Source: an uncultured Gammaproteobacteria bacterium
Lineage (GTDB): Bacteria; Pseudomonadota; Gammaproteobacteria; Pseudomonadales; Pseudohongiellaceae
Length of the DNA stretch: 64,000 bases
Reading direction: 5' to 3'
NCBI GenBank assembly: GCA_903853385.1
Contig: CAINTJ010000142.1
Location: forward strand, 1 to 64,000
How positions within the stretch are numbered: the first letter of the stretch is position 1; each line of letters opens with the position of its first letter. The position numbers were made by a program, and so were the translations under genes. The notes under the pieces are model-generated. The model made no database searches, had not been told where the DNA came from, and saw only the letters and a list, made by a program, of their open reading frames with translations. This document shows, piece after piece, positions 31,433 to 59,793 of the stretch.

Positions 31433-32434
31433 CTATTCTTCCAGAAACCTGTGGGCAACTTTGGCATCGCAGGCTTCGTCGGGGCCCGAAAGTTTCAGAT
31501 CGGGGCGATGATCCCACAACATCGTGAAGGTAGCTGGCTTGTCTAGATACGTGGGGTCTTCCACGGTGGATTCGTAACTCAAGTGCAGGCGATCATCGGC
31601 AAGCTTCACACGTTCCACCGTGTGCTTGCTGGCGCTGGAGGGCATATTGGCGGCAAGGCCGGACGGATCGGGCGCATAGCCGATGGTGTCGATCACCAGC
31701 GTGTCGCCTTCCCACTTGCCGATGGCATGCCCGAACAGCGACGGCTTCACATTGGCAGGATGCGCGGCATTGATGTGCACCACACGCACGCCGATGTCAC
31801 CCGAGTTGTCGAAGCGGAACACTACTTCTTTGTCGCTGACCTCGATGGCGCGCACTTCGTTGAGTATGGCCTGGAACGGGATCGGTTCAACGTAGCAGAT
31901 GCCGTCGGCCGGCTTGCCTTTGGCCTGTGCAGCGCGCCCTGCGGCTGAGTACTGCCATTGCGCCATTTCCCTGAACATTCTATTCGTTGTTGCCAGCGAA
32001 GGCGCCCAATTGCCAGCCAGGCTCTTGGCTGGCGTCAGCGTGGGCGGGCGCTTGTTCTCGGCATAGATGGGATGCACCACCCCGTCGGCGGTCGTCACAT
32101 CAAGACCACGCACGGTCTTGCCCGGCTCGCGATTGGGATTGGCACGTACCACCACCGGCTTGCCAACCTGCAAGTCCTCGCGCTGCAAACCATCTACTTG
32201 TGCCTGCTGAATCGAAAGCCCCTCCACCTGCACCATTTGCGACTTGCCGTCGGCGCCGGTGGTGTCCACGATCAGATACATGTGCGGGTTCTTCCAGTCG
32301 AGCCTTGCCAACTTGCCTTTGATCAGCACTTCTTGCGAGAGATCATAGGGTGCCTGGCTGTGGTGGGCAAAGGCAGAAGAACAGAGCAGTGCCGGGGCGG
32401 CAACGGCGAACAGGGCTACAGGCAGACGAATCAT
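31433..32434 (-). CDS. exported DUF6152 protein fused to a GxWxGDTLVID-motif domain
   Basis: A 333-residue protein with signal peptide (MIRLPVALFAVAAPALLCSS, cleavage at AFA-HHS). Residues 22-125 are a DUF6152 domain (AHHSQAPYDLSQEVLIKGKL, LDWKNPHMYLIV). Residues 150-333 are a second domain with IGKWEGDTLVIDTIGYAPDP and RVKLADDRLHLSYESTVEDP, the same motif that occurs in the proteins at 54211-55794 and twice in 57581-59083. Elsewhere in the window the two domains are separate adjacent genes, so this fusion suggests they work together. The start ATG 32434 has a GGAGG site. The function is unknown. Confidence 0.78.
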   Translation of the reverse strand: MIRLPVALFAVAAPALLCSSAFAHHSQAPYDLSQEVLIKGKLARLDWKNPHMYLIVDTTGADGKSQMVQVEGLSIQQAQVDGLQREDLQVGKPVVVRANPNREPGKTVRGLDVTTADGVVHPIYAENKRPPTLTPAKSLAGNWAPSLATTNRMFREMAQWQYSAAGRAAQAKGKPADGICYVEPIPFQAILNEVRAIEVSDKEVVFRFDNSGDIGVRVVHINAAHPANVKPSLFGHAIGKWEGDTLVIDTIGYAPDPSGLAANMPSSASKHTVERVKLADDRLHLSYESTVEDPTYLDKPATFTMLWDHRPDLKLSGPDEACDAKVAHRFLEE

Positions 32435-32574
32435 GATGGAGCCTCCGATGGGTGAGGAAAGCCAAGAATAGCCTATAACCAGTTGTTGGAGCCGCATTTT
32501 TTTGTTGGCTCGCAGCTGACTTTCCCTCAGATCAATGAAGGTGCGGATCTGATGTCGTTACTGTGGTTCTTTTC

Positions 32575-49888: not shown

Positions 49889-50788
49889 ATGAGAACCACC
49901 ACTCTTGGATTGATCGTATCTGGTTTGTTGCTAGCGGCATCCGCGACAGCACAAATCAATGCACCAAGCGAACTGCCGGCTGTGCGCTACGCTGCCAACA
50001 CCGTCACTACTGCCAGCTTTGCCGTGGGGTTGACCCTCGACAGCGGCCTTACTTACACCGGCACCGCACAGGTTTCCGACAAGATTTCCATTATTGGCAA
50101 AGTGCGGCCGGAAGCAGCTCATGTGGGCCAGCTCGGCGATTTGTTTGTGGTGGATTTTGTCAACGGGACGTGGACGATGCGCAACCGCGATGGTATCTAT
50201 GTACCCTGGAGCTTCCAGATTCCAGACTTGGTGCCATACAAGGAACAGGTGAGGCTGACCACAGACAACCAGGTGGATGTCTATACCGGCTCGCTGGGGA
50301 TCAGTGGCAGTCACCGGATATATATCGGCTACAAACCGCAAGGCGGTCTTTTGTACTATACCCCCGCGCCAAAACTGCTCACCTTTACGCAAGTGAGCGC
50401 CACTGACCAGGCCTATAGTGCGTTCGTTTCCTCCATATCACCCAATATTGTGCAGAGCCGCTGTGTGCTGTGCCATGTGAAAGGCGGAGCGGCAGAGGCA
50501 GCCGGCGCTTATCATATTTTTCAAATACCACTGGCTACGTCACTGGAAACCAACTTCAAGATTTTCCAGAATCTGGTCTCCCTGCGTGGAGTCAACTACA
50601 TTCTGACCAAAGTCAGCGGAGGCAACAGTCATGGTGGTGGCGTGCAGTTGACTGCCAACAGTGTTGACTACAAAGAGTTTCAGAATTTCCTGACCATGGT
50701 GGCACAGGACCAGCCTGCGATGGCGAACACTTCCAGCACTGGCATGTCGGATCCTTACGAGTCCAACCCCTACGGTTACGCGTATTAG
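49889..50788 (+). CDS. exported single-haem c-type protein of unknown family
   Basis: A 299-residue protein with a signal peptide (MRTTTLGLIVSGLLLAASATA). The first 160 residues are strand-rich (SFAVGLTLDSGLTYTGTAQV, VQVRLTTDN-like repeats, YIGYKPQGGLLYYTP). The C-terminal third has a single CVLCH site (C192, C195, H196) followed by GGAAEAAGAYHIFQI and ends in a Gly/Tyr-rich tail (YESNPYGYAY). The haem domain resembles planctomycete-type or DUF1588-like attachments seen in extracellular electron chains; the N-terminal domain is unrecognised. It has an AAAAGGAG ribosome site. Confidence 0.78.
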   Translation: MRTTTLGLIVSGLLLAASATAQINAPSELPAVRYAANTVTTASFAVGLTLDSGLTYTGTAQVSDKISIIGKVRPEAAHVGQLGDLFVVDFVNGTWTMRNRDGIYVPWSFQIPDLVPYKEQVRLTTDNQVDVYTGSLGISGSHRIYIGYKPQGGLLYYTPAPKLLTFTQVSATDQAYSAFVSSISPNIVQSRCVLCHVKGGAAEAAGAYHIFQIPLATSLETNFKIFQNLVSLRGVNYILTKVSGGNSHGGGVQLTANSVDYKEFQNFLTMVAQDQPAMANTSSTGMSDPYESNPYGYAY

Positions 50789-50920: not shown

Positions 50921-50994
50921 TCAGGGGACAATAAAATCGAAATCGATATGGTGTGGCGCGGCGGCGTCGAAACCCGTGGTGAAACCAGTCACAG
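50921..50994 (-). pseudogene. 3' remnant of a DUF6644-like membrane protein gene
   Basis: The minus strand reads VTGFTTGFDAAAPHHIDF then DFIVP and a stop. This matches the C-terminus of the 52615-53160 protein (LIGFTKGFDVAVPDNIDF then DFGAP). The coding frame has no start and abuts the 3' end of the amidase gene, whose stop lies inside it. It is the tail of a third DUF6644 copy left by a deletion or recombination. Confidence 0.7.
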
Positions 50995-52458
50995 GTTTGG
51001 CGGCCGGCGTATATGCCAATCAGTTGCCCGTTGCCAGGCAGCGCCCAGCGCGAACATTGACGCCTCATCCAGGCGTGCACTGCTCAGCTGCAGACCAATC
51101 GGCAGTCCGGAAGCACTGAAGCCACACGGCAGCGAAATGGTCGGTATGCCATAGAGATTGAACGGCGCCGTGTTGCGGGTTGATTCTTCGGCAGTGTTGG
51201 CTTCCGCCAGTTGCGCGCCAGAGATCAGTTCCGGCAGGCCGGGGGCGGTAGGCGTTACCAGTACGTCGACATCCCTGAACACGGCGGCAATCTGGTTGCG
51301 CCCCACCTGCATGGCCTGCCGGGCGCGAATGTACTCTTCCACCGGCGTCTTGCCGGCTGCAAGAATGCGCTCGAGTGTGGATGCATGGTAGAAGTGGTGA
51401 TTGGCCGGATCATCCAGCCAGGGCTTGTGCCACGCGTAGCTTTCGGCGAGCAGCGGCACGAAATTGCCGGGGTCAGGCAACTCCACATCGCGCATGGATC
51501 CAGTCAACTGTTGCAGCACGCGCAGCGCTTCCTGCATCGCATGATCGATGTCAGGTTGCAGGCGTTGGTAATAAGGGGTACGCGGTATGCCGATGCGCAG
51601 GCCGCGTACCGGTCGCTGCAGCATCTCGGCATAGCTAACCGCAGGCGCTTCGATGCTGGCGGGGTCGAGCGGATCGTAAGCGGCCATCTCGCGCAGCAAT
51701 ATCGCGCAATCGTCAATACCGCGCCCCAGCGGGCCGACATGATCGAGGGATTCCGCCACCGGGATGATGCCGCGGATGCTGCACAGCCCATGCGTGGCTT
51801 TGAGGCCGGACACGCCGCAATAAGCAGCCGGCAAGCGAATCGATGCCAGCGTGTCGGTACCCAGCGCCGCGCAGCACAGGCGCGCAGCGACCGCAGCAGC
51901 GGAGCCGCCGGAAGAACCGCCAGGAATGCGCGCGAGATTCCATGGATTGTGCACCGGCCCGGCACTCGAGATCGACGAAGTGCCACCGTAGGCGAATTCA
52001 TGCATATTGAGTTTGCCGAGCAGGATTGCACCGCTGGCGGCCAGACGCGCCCACACCGGAGCATCATGCAACGGGACGCGCTGTGCCAGCATGGCGTTGG
52101 CGGCCGTGGTGGGAATGCCGGCGGTATCGATGTTGTCCTTGAGGCCGAGCGGAATGCCATGCAAGGGCCCGCGCCATTTGCCGCGGGCAAGTTCGTCGGT
52201 CAGTATGCGCGCCTGCTTCAGCGCGACTTCCGGCGTGACACGGATATAGGCATTAATGCTGTCCTGGTAGTGCCCGATGCGCTGCAGGTAAGCTTCGGTC
52301 AGTTCCAGTGGCGACAGTTCTCCTTTGCGTATCAGCGCCGAGGCTTGGGCCAGCCCTAGCGAGGTAGCATCGGTGCCAGGTTGCGCCAGCAACCGCCGCG
52401 CTTGCCACAAGAGCGGGCTGGCAGCGACCAGTCTGAGCATACTGCGGCGCGAATACAT
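50989..52458 (-). CDS. Tat- or Sec-exported amidase (amidase signature family)
   Basis: A 489-residue amidase. The N-terminus (MYSRRSMLRLVAASPLLWQARRLLA) is a twin-arginine-like signal. The Ser-cisSer-Lys triad is present: Lys in LGLKDNIDTAG, cis-Ser in SIRLPAAYCGVSG, and the nucleophile Ser in RIPGGSSGGSAAAVA. The loop DTLASIRLP differs from the usual DTGGSIRIP. It hydrolyses carboxamides; the substrate is unknown. ATG 52458 is used since upstream sequence gives no sensible N-terminus. The C-terminus ends within a DUF6644 remnant, so the last residues may be non-native. Confidence 0.87.
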   Translation of the reverse strand: MYSRRSMLRLVAASPLLWQARRLLAQPGTDATSLGLAQASALIRKGELSPLELTEAYLQRIGHYQDSINAYIRVTPEVALKQARILTDELARGKWRGPLHGIPLGLKDNIDTAGIPTTAANAMLAQRVPLHDAPVWARLAASGAILLGKLNMHEFAYGGTSSISSAGPVHNPWNLARIPGGSSGGSAAAVAARLCCAALGTDTLASIRLPAAYCGVSGLKATHGLCSIRGIIPVAESLDHVGPLGRGIDDCAILLREMAAYDPLDPASIEAPAVSYAEMLQRPVRGLRIGIPRTPYYQRLQPDIDHAMQEALRVLQQLTGSMRDVELPDPGNFVPLLAESYAWHKPWLDDPANHHFYHASTLERILAAGKTPVEEYIRARQAMQVGRNQIAAVFRDVDVLVTPTAPGLPELISGAQLAEANTAEESTRNTAPFNLYGIPTISLPCGFSASGLPIGLQLSSARLDEASMFALGAAWQRATDWHIRRPPNL

Positions 52459-52614
52459 GGGAACAAGCCTCCGGATCGGGATCGGCACAGTGGAGAATAG
52501 GCTCTTGCCTGCTGATTTGTCACGCGGTCCCGGCTGGCACCGGCAATCTTGGCTGTCTGGTTCCGCGTGCCCATCCATATGTCGGAGCGGGCGTCATTCG
52601 GAGGGATTCGAACA

Positions 52615-53160
52615 TCAGGGAGCGCCAAAATCGAAATCGATGTTGTCAGGGACGGCAACATCGAAACCCTTGGTGAAGCCAATCAGGCGGCCCAGCACCA
52701 GCACGGTGACCCAGAGCAGTATTGAAAGCCCAGCGGCCAGTTGCGCGGCGCGCGGTGGCGGTTCATTGCGATCCCAGCGCGCCACTCCGCGGTAAGTAAC
52801 AAACTGGAACACTGCCATGTTAAGACCCGCCAGCACTATCGCCAGCATCTTGAAGCGGAAGGCGGTGTTGAACCAGTAGGTGGTGGCATTGGCCGAGAAA
52901 AACAGCGCACCGGATATTGCAGCACCGGCAAAGGCAGCCCAGGTCAGGTGCAGCAGCTCATCGGCAGTTCTGGTGACAGAGCGATGGCGGTCAAGCAGGC
53001 CCAGCAGGCGCAGATCGACCACCAGGATGGTGCCGAACACCAGGATGACACACAGCACATGCGCGGCATTGACCCAGGGCATCGCCAGCACGTTGGAGCG
53101 CATCCATTCGCCGAAGGCAGAGAATTCAATGGCGTGAATAAAGGACGGAGGCGTTCTCAT
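52615..53160 (-). CDS. DUF6644-like four-helix membrane protein A
   Basis: A 181-residue membrane protein with four helices: VNAAHVLCVILVFGTILVVD, LLHLTWAAFAGAAISGALFF, FRFKMLAIVLAGLNMAVFQF and LAAGLSILLWVTVLVLGRL. His31 (AAHVL) and LLHLTW lie inside helices and could bind a b-type haem. It ends DNIDFDFGAP. The start ATG 53160 overlaps the stop of the upstream gene by 4 bases (ATGA), the last gene of a four-gene operon. Its paralogue is the next gene up. Confidence 0.8.
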   Translation of the reverse strand: MRTPPSFIHAIEFSAFGEWMRSNVLAMPWVNAAHVLCVILVFGTILVVDLRLLGLLDRHRSVTRTADELLHLTWAAFAGAAISGALFFSANATTYWFNTAFRFKMLAIVLAGLNMAVFQFVTYRGVARWDRNEPPPRAAQLAAGLSILLWVTVLVLGRLIGFTKGFDVAVPDNIDFDFGAP

Positions 53161-53699
53161 AGTGCGCCGCCCCGCTGCAAAACAGCCGGCGACCAGCTGC
53201 CCCAAACCGAATCATCATAGGCAATGGTACGACCGAGAATGATGATGGCAACCCACAGCACCAGGGTGGCAACCGACGCCATGCGCATGCCACCTGACAC
53301 CAGTGGCTCGCTGCCTGCCACGGCAACTTCGGCCCGCACACGGCGACCAAAGACTGCTGCACTGACGATGCCAATGGCCAACAGCAGCATCTTGAGCCGG
53401 AACGACAGTGCCATGAGTTCACGCACGGGCTCGCTGATGACCAGCAGCACGCCGGTTATTATCAGCACCACAATCCCGCCCCACAGGAACGGTGCGAAAC
53501 GGCTCCAGGTCATTGCCAGCGGCTCATCGGTACGCGCACGACCCAGCACCCTGAGCGAGAGCATGAGAATGGAGACGAACACCACACCCACCATCAGAAT
53601 GTGAAAACACTGCACCAGCGGTACTATCCAGCTGATGGTTTTAATGGATGTGCTTAATGACGTCGAGTCAATCGCTTTGGCGATTTCCAGCAGACTCAT
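53157..53699 (-). CDS. DUF6644-like four-helix membrane protein B
   Basis: A 180-residue paralogue of the previous protein. It shares FHILMVGVVFVSILMLSLRVLG (with in-membrane His33), FLWGGIVVLIITGVLLVIS and FRLKMLLLAIGIVSAAVFG, the same FR.KML......A.F helix. Two related four-helix subunits translated from overlapping genes suggest a heterodimer. A possible role is quinone- or haem-linked membrane electron transfer, inferred from the buried His only. It starts 8 bp after the DUF6152 gene. Confidence 0.8.
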   Translation of the reverse strand: MSLLEIAKAIDSTSLSTSIKTISWIVPLVQCFHILMVGVVFVSILMLSLRVLGRARTDEPLAMTWSRFAPFLWGGIVVLIITGVLLVISEPVRELMALSFRLKMLLLAIGIVSAAVFGRRVRAEVAVAGSEPLVSGGMRMASVATLVLWVAIIILGRTIAYDDSVWGSWSPAVLQRGGAL

Positions 53700-53707
53700 C
53701 CTTTACC

Positions 53708-54214
53708 TCATTTGGTTGGTGTGGGCAGCGTGCCCTGACCAAAAGCGGTACGGCCTTCCACTGCATCGCAGTGCTCACCCGGTTTGGGCGGCGTGGCCTT
53801 GCCATTGGCGCCAACCGGACACTTGAACAGCGGACCTTCCCGGAAACCGGAAGGGTCGCCGCTACGTTGCGGATGCACACCCACACTGAACACCGTACCC
53901 GGCTGGAAGGTGGACACGGAGATACCATCCTGGGCAGCGGCGGCGGAGCCGGCCATTTCCACGGCCCAGATCACCGGCTTGCCATCTTTGTCACGCTCGA
54001 CGTTCTTGCGATCCGTGTTCATCGGCGCAAAGAAAATCTGCAGGTGGTTGGCATCGGGATTCACGCGTGTGACCACCCCGGTCAGTATCTGGGTCTTGGT
54101 CATGTCGTATGCGGCGAACGAATGATGTGCGTGCAGCAGCGGCGACGCGGCCAGGCCCACGATCAGCGCGGCTGCGCTGCCAATAGTCTTCAACATCAGT
54201 TTATTCTTGCTCAT
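53708..54214 (-). CDS. exported DUF6152 protein
   Basis: A 168-residue protein with a signal peptide ([20 protein letters not shown] to LLHA). The DUF6152 start is [20 protein letters not shown], followed by [17 protein letters not shown] in place of the usual NPH, then [16 protein letters not shown] and [19 protein letters not shown] with two Cys (FKCP, HCDA). The histidine pair at the mature N-terminus (HH) is suited to metal binding. It begins in an ATGA overlap with the large exported protein upstream. Confidence 0.87.
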
Positions 54215-55794
54215 TTTTTGTCACCCTTCTTCGCAACTGGCTCGTCGAAATTGAACATATCTTCTTCTTTGGCAGTGTCGGGATCTTTCATCCCCTGCTC
54301 GAAATATTTTGCCCACGTCTTTGCCCATGGACGGCCGTACATGTCAGGCACTTCAAATTCAATCACCTGGCCGGGCGTGACCGGCGTCGCCTTGCCTTTG
54401 ACTGCATAGATGTTCGGCACGCATTCAATGAACGCGTACGGATTGCCCTGGTCCATGCCGCCCAGGCGCGTCAGTGTACGCACGATGCGAATCGGTTCCA
54501 CCAGCGATTCCGGATCATAGAAGATCGCCTCGTGGTTGAGCCCGGTCAGTTTGCCTTGGGCATCACGGTTCGGCGAATAGATCTCGAGGGTTTGCAGCTT
54601 GCTGGAAAACTCGAACTTGCCATGCACCATCCAGCCCTGCACGTTCGAGGTCCAGGTAATCAGCGTGTCCTTGTCCCAGAAACCGACGGTTTCGCCGTAC
54701 CAGCGTGGCACGTCGGTGCCCAGACGCGGGGTCGCGCCGCTCATGTTGAACGTGCGGCCAACGTTGATGTTGGTGACAAAATTGCGCGCCACACCCGTGG
54801 AAATCTGCACCAGCTCGGGCGTCACAAGAATGTAGTGGGGATTGATGCCGGGCTGGATTGCCACCGGATCAAAACGACGCATGAAGCCTTCCGGCCAGCA
54901 ATATTGCGAAGGCCATTGCGAGGCAGCATTGACGCCCTCCTGATACAGCAGCTCCACCATGCGTTTCTGGTACTCGGGTGTCAGCAGCGACAGGATGGTC
55001 GGGATCTGGTTGACGCGCATGCTGCCATACCAGTTCTGTCCGCCGAGTCCATAGCGGCCAGTCCAGTCGCCAGGCACGGTCGCATAGGTGTGCTGGGTGG
55101 GACCGCCGTGGGCTTTGGTCTCAGCCATCAGTGCTTCGTAATGGGCCTGTGCAGTTTTGAACGGATAGGGGCTCACGATGGCAGCACGCGGATAGTCACG
55201 ATCGCAGAATCCCCAAGGTGCGTTCTTAGGATTGTCGCCAGCCAGTGCCGCGCCGTTGGCACCCCGCTGCGATTCAGCCGCATAGGGGCTGTTGCAACGG
55301 AAATAGCGCGGATCACTCCACAGTGCACGGTCCTGATAGAAATCCTTGGTGGTGAACAGATCAACCGGCAGCGGCTTGACGCCCGGAGGTGCCGCGCCAT
55401 CATAGGAGCTGGCTGCGATTGCGGTGGCAACTCCCTGGGAACCCGCTACTGGCGGTTGTCCAGCCACTGGCGGCCGGCCCGCAGCCGGAGCTGCACCGGC
55501 GGCAGGTGGAGGTCCACCGGCACCAGGAGGACCGCCAGCACCCGGCGGTGGTCCTGCGAACAAACCCCGCATAGGCGCCGGACCAATCTGCCACAGGTCA
55601 CGATCCATGAATTGTTTGACCGCTTCATCCTTCACCTGGGCAGGCTTGGCATTGGCTGGTGGCTGATTAAGGTCGGCGGCCAGCGGCCAGCCGCGCCCCA
55701 CGCTCTGGGGTGCGGGATCAGCAGCCTGCAGGCCTGCTATTCCGGCGATGAGCAAGAGCCCAGAAGCCACTACCAGTTTCTTCGCAATTCGCAT
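54211..55794 (-). CDS. large exported protein with PPGGAGG linker and GxWxGDTLIxW motif
   Basis: A 527-residue protein with a signal peptide (residues 1-24). A Pro/Gly/Ala-rich linker (about 78-121) separates a short N-terminal helix from a large domain. The domain has [75 protein letters not shown] and [18 protein letters not shown]. The [12 protein letters not shown] block matches GKWEGDTLVIDT and related blocks at 31433, 57581. Function unknown. It is the first gene of a four-gene operon with DUF6152 and two DUF6644 proteins. Confidence 0.8.
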
Positions 55795-56094: not shown

Positions 56095-56154
56095 ATGCGA
56101 TTCACTATCAAAGGCATTGTTACGGGCCTGCTGTCCGGTACTGAGCGCCAATGA
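56095..56154 (+). CDS. 19-residue upstream ORF (possible leader peptide or truncated gene start)
   Basis: ATG 56095 follows GGGGAGGGAGC, the strongest ribosome site in the area, and encodes MRFTIKGIVTGLLSGTERQ, ending at TGA 56152-56154, one base before the ATG of the next gene. It may be a coupling leader. It may instead be the start of a signal-peptide gene broken by a frameshift, since MRFTIKGIVTGLL looks like a signal start. Confidence 0.45.
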   Translation: MRFTIKGIVTGLLSGTERQ

Positions 56155-56155
56155 C

Positions 56156-57154
56156 ATGAGCATGGTGCCCGGAATCCGCACCGTTTCAAGGGCCAGCTAC
56201 ATGCTGGCCTTTTTAGTATCGGTATTGCCGGCGTCCGCTGCTGCCCACGTCAAATGGTTCGTGCCGTTGACCGAGCACATGCCGGCCGGCTTCCAGTGGT
56301 ATGGCTGGACTGATCCGGCGGTGCTGGTGTGGTTGGCAATTGCTGCCGGCATGATCGCGACCTCGCTCTGCCTAGACCTGCGCCTGCCTGCGCCCCAGCT
56401 TGCCTCGCCACGCCTCCTGCATGCTCTGCAATGGGTGTTGCGCATCTTCACCGGGGGGTCCTTGCTGATGAGTGCACACAACGGGGTGATCATTGCTCCG
56501 CACTATCACTGGACTGGCTGGAGCGCCCCGCTGCTGGTGGTATTGGAAAACGCCGCCGGTTTACTGCTGATGACGTCGTGGGTGTTTGCCGCCAGCCTCA
56601 TACTGCTGCTGCTGTATTGTGGCTGCGCGTTGCTGGTCGGTGCCGAGATCATCGAGTATCTCAACGTGGCGGGGGTTGCCGTCTACCTACTATGCCTGCA
56701 CTACCCCACAGCCGCCATGCGCGCCCGCTTGCAGGCCAGCGCACTGCCACTGCTGCGCATCATGACCGGCCTGGCGCTGGTCACGCTCGGTTTCACCGAA
56801 AAACTGCTCAGGCCTGACTATGCAGAAACTTTCGTGCAAACCTATATGTGGAATTTCATGCAGACTCTGGGCTTCACCAACTACAGCGACCGCCTGTTTG
56901 TGTTGTCGGCCGGCACCATGGAAGTGGTATTCGGCATTATCTTGGTAATTGGCAGTACCACCCGCCTCAACATTCTGGTGGTCTCGCTGTTCATGCTGAC
57001 TTCCAACCTCACCTTTCTGGTACAGGGCAATTATCACGAAGCGCTGACTGAAATCATCGGCCACTTGCCGATCATTGCGATTGCCATCGTGTGCCTGTTT
57101 CTGGGGGGCGGCCAGCGCTGGCAACTAAGCGCGCTGCTGCGGCGCCAGCCGTAA
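56156..57154 (+). CDS. polytopic membrane protein, DoxX-like C-terminal half
   Basis: A 332-residue membrane protein with about nine helices. The N-terminal part may be a signal or helix (SYMLAFLVSVLPASAAAHVKW). The C-terminal half has LLRIMTGLALVTLGFTEKLL, FGIILVIGSTTRLNILVVSL and LVQGNYHEALTEIIGHLPIIA, resembling DoxX/DoxD-type subunits, with GFTEKL in place of GxxKL. DoxX-like proteins work in thiosulphate:quinone oxidation or thiol redox balance. ATG 56156 is likely coupled to the upstream short ORF. Neighbours: a DUF6152 operon on each side. Confidence 0.72.
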   Translation: MSMVPGIRTVSRASYMLAFLVSVLPASAAAHVKWFVPLTEHMPAGFQWYGWTDPAVLVWLAIAAGMIATSLCLDLRLPAPQLASPRLLHALQWVLRIFTGGSLLMSAHNGVIIAPHYHWTGWSAPLLVVLENAAGLLLMTSWVFAASLILLLLYCGCALLVGAEIIEYLNVAGVAVYLLCLHYPTAAMRARLQASALPLLRIMTGLALVTLGFTEKLLRPDYAETFVQTYMWNFMQTLGFTNYSDRLFVLSAGTMEVVFGIILVIGSTTRLNILVVSLFMLTSNLTFLVQGNYHEALTEIIGHLPIIAIAIVCLFLGGGQRWQLSALLRRQP

Positions 57155-57157
57155 TGG

Positions 57158-57562
57158 TTATTTCTCTTCCGGTGCGTTCTGGTTGGAAGTGCCGGCAAAC
57201 AAGCGGCGACCATCACTGAGCGTCACTGCGCGGATGTTGCCGGTGGTACTGCCATTGCGCGCCTGCCAGCCATCCACCTTCAGCACCGTGCCGGCCGGCA
57301 AATCCTCTTTGCGCCAGCCACGACGGATCAAGCCGTTGGCAGCGCTGGTTTCCAGCGCCCAGTTGACGGTTTTGCCGGTGGCGTCGGTGACATCCAGATA
57401 AATCCAGCCGTGCGGATTCGACCACTTCATCTCCGTGACCTTGCCGGTGAGCGAGATCGGTTTGTCACCATCGTACTCGGCGGAAAAGGAGTGATGGGCC
57501 AATGTCACACCGCTGCTCAACAGGGTGGCAATAGTCAGCAATGACTTAAAGTAGGTATTCAT
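57158..57562 (-). CDS. exported DUF6152 protein, short canonical form
   Basis: A 134-residue protein with signal peptide (MNTYFKSLLTIATLLSSGVTLA) and a full DUF6152 domain: HHSFSAEYDGDKPISLTGKV, MKWSNPHGWIYLDVTDATGK and GWRKEDLPAGTVLKVDGWQARNG. It shows the HH at the mature start and the NPHGW block that define the family. It lies 18 bp after the 500-residue exported protein gene in one operon. Start ATG 57562 has CGGAG. Confidence 0.9.
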   Translation of the reverse strand: MNTYFKSLLTIATLLSSGVTLAHHSFSAEYDGDKPISLTGKVTEMKWSNPHGWIYLDVTDATGKTVNWALETSAANGLIRRGWRKEDLPAGTVLKVDGWQARNGSTTGNIRAVTLSDGRRLFAGTSNQNAPEEK

Positions 57563-57580
57563 AAATTCTGCTCCGGACAA

Positions 57581-59083
57581 TTACTGTTTCGCATGTGCCC
57601 CACGATATTCATCACGCACATCCTTGAGATGCTGTAAATCATTGTTGTCTTCCAGACATGCCACTTCCAGCAATTCATCATCCATGCGATTGAGCGGCAA
57701 CTCTATCGTCCATGGCCGTTTATAGGGAATCGGATCGCTGACGGTAGCACGGTAAATGATGCGGTCAGCACTCACCGGAGTAAATGTTTCCACGATGGTC
57801 TGCATGTGACTGAGCACATCGCCCACTTCATTGTGCCAGGCCTTGCCGTTGAAGTTGCGGCTATCGACTACCAGCGTATCACCCTCGAAATGACCGATGG
57901 AATCACCCTGCCACAGACGCAGGTTGTCAGGCAGGTGTTCACGCCGGTTGAGTGCAACCTCGCGCCAGGCCATGCGTTCATGCAAAAACACCAGCCGGTC
58001 CCGGGTCTGCACGATGTGGAAGGGAGACGGCACATAGAAAGAACGCGGAACGCCAGCGACAAAACAGTGGGCAGTGGGATCATCATAGCCCCGCTGCGGT
58101 TGCTCACGATTGGTGCGTTCCGCGCGCGCCCATTGCTGGTAAGGCAACATATGGTCGGCCGGATCTATCACCACACCGCGTGAATTCGGCGTCAGAAACC
58201 CACCCTTGGTACCCTCCAGTCCGTAGTTGGCACCGCCGCCATCAGTCAGAAAATAACCGTTCAAATCCGGGGTTCCGTCCGGCAGGCGCTTGATATCAGC
58301 CCCCACCTTGGGCAGTGGTGGCACTGCACTGGCCCTGGCATCAAAGGGTTCATTGCCGGCAGGGATTTTGGCCGGATACCAGTTGCGGTCGTCGCGCTCG
58401 AAGTCGCCATTGGCCTCTTCCTTTTCCGCCTGGCACTGGTTTTCCAGCAAGCGTGGTTGCTGATGCTGGCGCTTGAATTCGGCCTTGAGCAGCCAGGGCT
58501 TGCTGAACACTGCGGGATCAGTGACGGTGGCCTGATAAACTAGGGTATCGGCATCCCGCAATTGATAACGTTCGGTGATCTTCATGGCAGCGCTATGAAA
58601 ATTGCCGGTACTGTCCAGCCAGCTGCGGTTGTTGAAATCCTTCACATCCACCACTAGGGCATCGCCTTGCCAATGGCCACGCGCATGCCCCATCCACGAT
58701 TCAACCCCTTCATAACGCGACTTGCTGCCGCTGGTATAAATCAGCCGATAGACCTGCTGCCACTGGAAAGTAAGGGCCACTGCGGCATCGGTCTGGGTAA
58801 TTTCAAAAGGCGAGTCCAGCAGCATCACGCGCGGAGTGCCGGGCAGCCAGCAGCGGCTCATCGGATCCATGCTGGCACGTGCGGCGAAATTGGCCTGCTG
58901 CTGCGCCAGCGCAGCCGGCAGATACGGCAGCGTACCCGCCAGCTTTGCAAGATCGGCACCGGCGCCGGCACTGACCTGCCAGATGCCTTGCAGATCCGGC
59001 TGGCCGGCGGCAGTACGCGGCAGGTTTTGCGCCTGCACTGTGCAGGCCAGACTTACAAAAAGCACCAACCAATAACGCAACAT
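57581..59083 (-). CDS. exported protein with two copies of the GxWxGDTLVVD domain
   Basis: A 500-residue protein with a signal peptide (MLRYWLVLFVSLACTVQA). Two homologous halves each contain a block W.QGDALVVDVKDFNNRSW (about residues 140-165) and FEGDTLVVDSRNFNGKAWH (about 395-420), then a strand with RATVSDP/QATVTDP. The same block occurs once in 31433-32434 and 54211-55794. The protein is therefore a tandem form of a domain that travels with DUF6152. Its function is unknown; a binding or lyase role for hydrophobic ligands is speculation. Confidence 0.8.
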   Translation of the reverse strand: MLRYWLVLFVSLACTVQAQNLPRTAAGQPDLQGIWQVSAGAGADLAKLAGTLPYLPAALAQQQANFAARASMDPMSRCWLPGTPRVMLLDSPFEITQTDAAVALTFQWQQVYRLIYTSGSKSRYEGVESWMGHARGHWQGDALVVDVKDFNNRSWLDSTGNFHSAAMKITERYQLRDADTLVYQATVTDPAVFSKPWLLKAEFKRQHQQPRLLENQCQAEKEEANGDFERDDRNWYPAKIPAGNEPFDARASAVPPLPKVGADIKRLPDGTPDLNGYFLTDGGGANYGLEGTKGGFLTPNSRGVVIDPADHMLPYQQWARAERTNREQPQRGYDDPTAHCFVAGVPRSFYVPSPFHIVQTRDRLVFLHERMAWREVALNRREHLPDNLRLWQGDSIGHFEGDTLVVDSRNFNGKAWHNEVGDVLSHMQTIVETFTPVSADRIIYRATVSDPIPYKRPWTIELPLNRMDDELLEVACLEDNNDLQHLKDVRDEYRGAHAKQ

Positions 59084-59349
59084 GGATTCACCTCAGCAAC
59101 ACTACCCTGAGCATATAGAGCGGGGCTGCGGGGGGCAACCACAGTGCGAGTGTTGAAAATTGTTTACACTTTTCAGACTGTTGCCACCGCGACCGGACAA
59201 GCCGCATGCAAGCAAGTCGTGCTCGCGGCGGCCCGAAGGCTGACAGCTGGAGAATGACCGATTTTTGTTTCTTATCAATCCCGCTCCACCCATTGAGTTT
59301 ATGCTGTAAAAACTGTCAGTCCTCGTTCCCAACCACAATGGAGGTAGTC

Positions 59350-59793
59350 ATGAAATTGCCAGCCATACTTTTTGCTATCGCAGCCATAGTCTCCACCCAG
59401 GCTTGTGTTGCTGCTGATGAACATGTGCATGGCGCTGCCGAGCAGGGCAAGGCCACAACCATGGCGCCCACCACCATGATGGGATTCATGGACCATGAAC
59501 AGATGACAAAAATGCATGAACACATGGAACAAATGCAGGCCATGATGCAGGCAATAAAAAAAGAGAAGGATCCCGCCAAACGCAAGCAGCTGATGCAGAA
59601 GCATATGGACAACATGCAGGACAGCATGAAAATGATGGGAGGCGCCATGATGGGCACAACCAGCAAAGGCAACATGTCCACCATGTCGATGGATGAAAAA
59701 ATGAATATGATGCAAAACCAGATGGATATGATGGGCATGATGATGCAGCAAATGCTGGAACATCATTCGCAGGATACTGAAACACACAAATAA
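59350..59793 (+). CDS. Met- and His-rich periplasmic protein (possible copper-binding)
   Basis: A 147-residue protein with a signal peptide (MKLPAILFAIAAIVSTQA, ending near CVAADEHVHG). The mature chain holds 32 Met and 9 His in motifs such as TTMMGFMDHEQMTKMHEHM, KMMGGAMMGT and MDMMGMMMQQMLEHH, with a helical, amphipathic look. Such Met/His patterns bind Cu(I) in copper-handling proteins; this is inference. GGAGG precedes ATG 59350. Its stop TAA overlaps the next start (TAATG), coupling it to a phosphorylase. Confidence 0.72.
   Translation: MKLPAILFAIAAIVSTQACVAADEHVHGAAEQGKATTMAPTTMMGFMDHEQMTKMHEHMEQMQAMMQAIKKEKDPAKRKQLMQKHMDNMQDSMKMMGGAMMGTTSKGNMSTMSMDEKMNMMQNQMDMMGMMMQQMLEHHSQDTETHK

Follow-up and report, generated by a model that had tools for sequence, protein, structure and literature searches.

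The window analysed here, a 64,000-nucleotide stretch of contig CAINTJ010000142.1 from an uncultured gammaproteobacterium (assembly GCA_903853385.1), carries on its minus strand four closely packed genes which a preliminary description, made from the sequence alone, had taken for a single unit of periplasm and membrane (Table 1); all four open reading frames were confirmed at that position. The gene for a 527-residue exported protein overlaps the following DUF6152 gene at an ATGA junction, 8 bp separate the latter from the first of two DUF6644 membrane protein genes (DUF6644-A), and the ATG of DUF6644-B at 53160 overlaps the upstream TGA, again as ATGA. Because of this overlap with the preceding stop, the TTG at 53205 given as the DUF6644-B start in the open reading frame list was rejected. 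The amidase gene was rejected as a fifth member, since L047 and L048, both close relatives, do not have it beside the quartet.

Table 1. Genes of the quartet, of the larger unit and of their surroundings; positions are those of the window.
Gene	Position	Strand	Remarks
Natural DUF6152-LW fusion	31433..32497	-	used to model the structure of the pair
Exported protein with one CxxCH motif	49889-50788	+	weak match to rubber dioxygenase RoxC model, E 3e-4, far under cut-off
Amidase	50989-52578	-	PF01425, E 4e-110; same strand as quartet and downstream of it; twin-arginine-like signal after an internal Met
DUF6644-B membrane protein	52615..53160	-	PF20349, E 3.9e-10; ATG start seen in sequence
DUF6644-A membrane protein, 180 aa	53157..53699	-	PF20349, E 6.5e-5; paralogue of B
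DUF6152, 168 aa	53708..54214	-	PF19649, E 1e-12
527-aa exported protein	54211..55794	-	no Pfam or NCBIfam family
DoxX-like membrane protein	56117-57154	+	splits the six-gene unit in two
Second, canonical DUF6152	57158..57580	-	PF19649, E 4.2e-29; paired with 500-aa LW protein
500-aa LW protein	57581..59083	-	two LW repeats; upstream member of the unit in relatives
Small exported protein, extremely Met/His-rich	59206-59793	+	possibly metal-binding; opposite strand to the LW/DUF6152 pair, ~120 bp away

A scan of one-genome-per-species contigs for the 527-aa family gave 79 loci, mostly from metagenome-assembled Gammaproteobacteria, and the order 527-DUF6152-DUF6644-DUF6644 was complete in nine other contigs (L047, L048, L052, L057, L060, L064, L068, L074 and L093), including L057 and L064, where one quartet gene missed by the simple gene caller is present in the family match lists; a tenth quartet (L053) is interrupted by its contig end. 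Since this order is kept in nine other contigs while the genes on either side differ among them, the quartet is not a chance arrangement: the four neighbouring genes are a conserved bacterial operon, as their tight coupling had been taken to mean. Two of the quartets come from records with the titles Rhodospirillales (L060) and Euryhalocaulis (L093); the 527-aa protein also has relatives that are not accompanied by the quartet, in records titled Acidobacteria and in two named strains (Rubellimicrobium, Pseudoroseicyclus). In L048, a close relative, six genes stand in one row (LW-DUF6152-527-DUF6152-DUF6644-DUF6644), LW being the label given here to an unnamed second domain that is fused to DUF6152 or encoded next to it. 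The same six genes are carried by the window, split by the opposite-strand DoxX-like gene, which is not at the corresponding place in L047 or L048. Thus, the unit in the window reaches 59083; the four genes first described do belong to it, but the 500-aa LW gene and the DUF6152 gene paired with it (59083-57158) had been missed. No constant extra neighbour gene was found across the 79 loci.

The association of DUF6152 with DUF6644 extends well beyond the quartet. Among 194 genomes of the same order, DUF6152 is present in 26 and DUF6644 in 21, with both in 21 of the 21 DUF6644 genomes; in a sample of 398 genomes of the phylum the corresponding figures are 42, 29 and 29 of 29, and the two genes lie within 3 kb of each other in 25 of these 29. 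The hypergeometric P values of 9e-24 (order) and 3e-34 (phylum) ignore genome relatedness. DUF6152 and DUF6644 are near-obligate partners, and the failure of the families to co-occur, named beforehand as what would speak against the module, is not what was found. Other arrangements include an operon DUF6152-DUF6644-LW-glyoxalase-PQQ dehydrogenase (L131), the order LW-DUF6152-DUF6644-DUF6644 (L132), two DUF6644 genes after a DUF6152-LW fusion (L140, L141) and yet another order in L142. The barrel described below is not obligatory, since bare DUF6152-DUF6644 operons without a barrel gene occur in L126-L130. Tandem DUF6644 pairs also occur without an adjoining DUF6152 gene (L134-L139, L143, L145), some of them adjoined by apparent cyclic-nucleotide-binding and thiolase-like genes.

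The two separate DUF6152 copies of the window score 48.4 and 100.9 bits against a Pfam cut-off of 27. The mature part of the quartet copy, coded by 54127-53711, begins HHSF, which bears out the exported protein with a mature His-His start that had been read from the sequence. Automatic scoring of 91 DUF6152 matches found a signal-like stretch directly before His-His in 84, of which 79 have Ala at position -1 and 70 have Ala or Val at position -3; two more, the canonical window copy and L102, failed the scoring through the hydrophobicity filter only and have Ala-His-His by eye, and the remaining five are one contig-cut open reading frame and four apparently wrong-frame ones. H1, H2, G17, H28 and G68 (mature numbering) are invariant in 35 diverse DUF6152 rows, and H2 and H28 are invariant in alignments A3 and A4; the rows that keep His1, His2 and His28 are only 16-30% identical to the window copy. 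At the level of sequence, DUF6152 thus bears the signature of N-terminal-histidine (histidine-brace-type) metal proteins, with His1, His2 and His28 as the predicted metal ligands. An N-terminal His after signal cleavage is the very signature that has been used to find N-terminal-histidine metalloproteins (PMC12537917), a paper in whose main text DUF6152 is not named. In essentially every member His occupies position +1 relative to the cleavage site, which speaks for a role of the free N-terminal amine like that in histidine braces (PMC10952591). The most informative feature of the module is this exact N-terminal His-His with a third invariant His in DUF6152, not the membrane His.

In the AF2 model of the natural DUF6152-LW fusion (pLDDT 84.4, pTM 0.82), residues 1-100 adopt the OB topology b1-b2-b3-helix-b4-b5, with His28 just ahead of b2, and residues 114-288 form a calycin (VIA Z 10.3 to 3ppt). 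The OB fold predicted for DUF6152 rests on the strand order and a few Foldseek rows of OB proteins (PriB, SSB, LysRS), because the VIA tables are filled by barrels; a PDB sequence search with DUF6152 gave only an unconvincing match, and no CopC or DUF1775 Pfam match was found in the DUF6152 proteins of the window. The 527-aa protein has a signal peptide, a disordered Pro/Gly linker (~79-120) and then a conserved region, the C-terminal half of which (~238-450) is a predicted barrel of the same FABP-like calycin type (model pLDDT 84.6, pTM 0.83; VIA Z 8.9 to CRBP1 5h9a, 3.3 Å over 125 residues). The linker after which this protein had been named is present, and the three other rows of alignment A1 lack it, but the predicted lipid-binding-type barrel behind it had gone unnoticed. 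Profile comparison with the LW family (hhalign prob 96.4, E 1.3e-9) identifies the 527-aa protein as a divergent LW family member; the 500-aa protein shows conserved W, C, R, G, D and E columns in its repeats. Neither protein has a Pfam or NCBIfam match, hence no match to a known calycin family, and a PDB sequence search for the 527-aa family turned up no relative of solved structure.

LW and the 527-aa protein are thus predicted to be antiparallel barrels closest to fatty-acid- and retinol-binding proteins (VIA Z 8.9 to 10.3), from which they differ in that LW is exported, bacterial, outside any Pfam family and fused to or paired with DUF6152, and in having an invariant Cys pair, Arg and Trp of its own. 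LW is fused to DUF6152 in nine and encoded by the adjacent gene in 19 of the 28 DUF6152 genes examined in the window's own genome. The 527 family also occurs alone, as a DUF6152 gene lies within 200 bp on the same strand for 26 of the 69 family genes with enough flanking DNA. The shared fold, itself modelled, would be no proof of ligand binding by the barrel. Proteins with FABP-like folds mostly act as carriers without catalysis, and ligand binding is common among OB folds. Both points favour a non-redox carrier or sensing system, in which the barrel would ferry a lipid or phenolic towards the membrane pair or away from it, and structural zinc or nothing would be bound by the histidines; the placement of His exactly at +1 in essentially every DUF6152 member, as in histidine braces (PMC10952591), speaks against such a system, and we consider it improbable.

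Turning to the membrane pair, DUF6644-B scores 40.5 bits and DUF6644-A 23.6 bits against the Pfam cut-off of 27; the two are paralogues (26% identity, E 7e-9), and the hydropathy is consistent with about four membrane helices with the His at the first one, in agreement with the initial view of two paralogous four-helix proteins. His31, Gly81, Lys101 and Trp147 are invariant in the family alignment, and Arg48, Phe98, Gly154 and Arg155 nearly so. With only one His invariant, a bis-His haem site inside a single DUF6644 chain finds no support. Of 39 DUF6644 members, 12 match the DUF2214 model (best 1.4e-6), four the CopD model (best 2.7e-5) and four the UPF0093/HemJ model (best 0.0015), and hhalign, run without a negative control, gave a low probability of 46 against CopD and 46 (E 2e-4) against HemJ. 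The CopD model also matches HemJ genes (e.g. G020:C6), which suggests that CopD and HemJ form one superfamily, and DUF6644 appears distantly related to the CopD/HemJ/DUF2214 membrane proteins. Like HemJ, it is a small membrane protein whose first helix has an invariant His, and the profile alignment pairs this His, as well as Gly and Lys, in register; unlike HemJ, it falls under the UPF0093 cut-off, comes in tandem pairs and has other operon partners. According to work cited in PMC11662147 and PMC6878006, HemJ is a haem protein of the b type that probably works with plastoquinone. Through this distant kinship the initial suggestion of b-haem or quinone work by the membrane pair has gained an indirect pointer.

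These features invite comparison with known metal systems. CopC and DUF1775 proteins go with CopD (PMC12362106), and anglerases with HupE/UreJ (PMC12537917). As in CopC/CopD and YcnI(DUF1775)/YcnJ, a periplasmic protein with an N-terminal His ligand is encoded beside a multi-helix membrane protein like those of the CopD superfamily; DUF6152, however, is predicted to have an OB fold and matches neither the CopC nor the DUF1775 model, DUF6644 has no more than a remote link to CopD, and the FABP-like barrel partners and the large copy number are features of the module and not of CopC/CopD. DUF4198, DUF6702 and the anglerases (signal strapping, PMC12537917) are likewise uncharacterised exported families with His1 after signal cleavage, some of them joined to membrane permeases; DUF6152 differs from them in fold, in having two adjacent His and a third, and in a stricter His1, kept in essentially all members as against the 79% and 65% quoted in that paper. 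With LPMOs and other histidine-brace copper enzymes DUF6152 shares the N-terminal His and a second, internal His, without any sequence or detected fold relation, and the substrate pocket of the module, unlike that of LPMOs, would lie in a separate FABP-like barrel. An N-terminal-His metalloprotein with a membrane partner is thus already known as a kind; new relative to the literature searched, in which DUF6152 and DUF6644 are unnamed and no published description of the module was found, are the DUF6152, LW and DUF6644 families themselves, as well as the fold, the set of partners and the scale.

The main rival to the reading we favour follows from this comparison. DUF6152 might scavenge periplasmic copper (or nickel) and pass it to DUF6644, across or into the membrane, in metal capture or delivery of the CopC/CopD, YcnI/YcnJ or anglerase kind, the barrels being recipients of the metal or binders of a metal-carrying small molecule. 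Such delivery is favoured by the bare two-gene operons and by the resemblance to CopC/CopD, namely the same plan of a periplasmic N-terminal-His protein and a CopD-related membrane protein encoded side by side or in one operon (PMC12362106, PMC12537917). Against it stand the remoteness of the CopD link, the fusion to an FABP-like barrel and the catabolic neighbours, which are unlike metal homeostasis, and the number of copies: the own genome (G000; 2.95 Mb) holds 37 DUF6152 matches, and three genomes of only 2.0-2.3 Mb from another family of the order (G024, G064, G124) at least 20-24 copies each. On balance, metal delivery seems to us unlikely, while deserving serious attention.

We note that this paralogous expansion of DUF6152 is extreme, many of the copies being fusions of 330-450 aa. 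With five DUF6644 genes against the 37 DUF6152 matches, most DUF6152 copies in the own genome have no DUF6644 gene of their own nearby. The same genome has ~25 PQQ-type dehydrogenase genes, 8 of 25 of which lie within 3 kb of a DUF6152 gene where 2.3 would be expected (P ~0.001, tested on search-match coordinates). A GSDH gene is directly downstream of the quartet in L074 and also present in L068, and tannase/feruloyl esterases (L059, L061) and amidohydrolases are among the neighbours of related loci, PQQ or esterase neighbours being found at a minority of loci. By eye, recurring pairs of Tat-type exported or cytochrome/ankyrin-like proteins that adjoin DUF6152/LW genes of the own genome (L031, L034, L038) resemble periplasmic redox gene sets, and genes of ~1010-1025 aa that look like TonB-dependent receptors adjoin others (L033, L035, L041).

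The preliminary description had pointed towards quinoproteins, and one could consider the module as an accessory electron-transfer unit for periplasmic PQQ dehydrogenases and related quinoproteins, in which DUF6152 would carry electrons and DUF6644 would hand them to quinone. The enrichment of DUF6152 near PQQ genes, the L131 operon with its PQQ dehydrogenase and the GSDH genes of L074 and L068 are in line with this, and a link to quinoproteins stands to that extent; most copies, however, have no such neighbour, 17 of the 25 PQQ genes of the own genome have no DUF6152 gene within 3 kb, and the nine quartets are mostly without PQQ neighbours. We therefore see only a slim chance that serving PQQ dehydrogenases is the role of the module.

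The reading we favour, tentatively and at somewhat less than an even chance, is a metal-dependent periplasmic system that acts on a hydrophobic substrate and is linked to the membrane via DUF6644. The four genes would encode one periplasm-membrane system, in which His1-His2 and His28 of secreted DUF6152 would form a transition-metal site, probably for copper and perhaps of histidine-brace-like geometry, and the calycin barrel of the 527-aa or LW protein might hold a hydrophobic small molecule in its pocket. Because DUF6152 and LW are often one polypeptide, the metal site and the pocket probably share a single target molecule. The two DUF6644 proteins, perhaps a CopD/HemJ-like membrane heterodimer, might then connect the DUF6152 site with the quinone pool by electron exchange, and the system would use its metal to oxidise a hydrophobic catabolic substrate, or would capture that substrate for oxidation. 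The 37 matches, the PQQ clustering and the esterase and amidohydrolase neighbours lead us to expect substrate-specific catabolism rather than metal homeostasis, and the DUF6152-LW fusion, the expansion and the catabolic neighbours likewise point to catalysis on organic substrates. Against this reading weigh the operons that lack a barrel gene, the many DUF6152 copies with no DUF6644 gene of their own nearby and the small share of loci with PQQ or esterase neighbours. The most specific form of this proposal is a class of metal (probably copper) oxygenases or oxidases that would combine an OB histidine-brace domain with a paired or fused FABP-type barrel for the substrate and, in the full operon, with a HemJ/CopD-like haem pair leading to quinone, and that would have multiplied in small gammaproteobacterial genomes to dozens of copies with separate substrates; in this full form we hold it to be rather doubtful. 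We are confident of the anatomy, that is the operon, the N-terminal His, the predicted folds and the partnership, which is much firmer than any mechanism.

LPMOs and the copper proteins of copper-uptake systems are among the N-terminal-histidine proteins, and each addition of families to this group has tended to bring new chemistry or metal handling. With this study DUF6152 gains a concrete prediction, a native His1 metal site, together with constant partners and predicted folds, and DUF6644 acquires a partner and can be placed near the CopD/HemJ superfamily. That a single 2.95-Mb genome holds 37 matches suggests a large and unexplored periplasmic repertoire, and the module could represent a novel kind of metal enzyme or a metal-delivery system.
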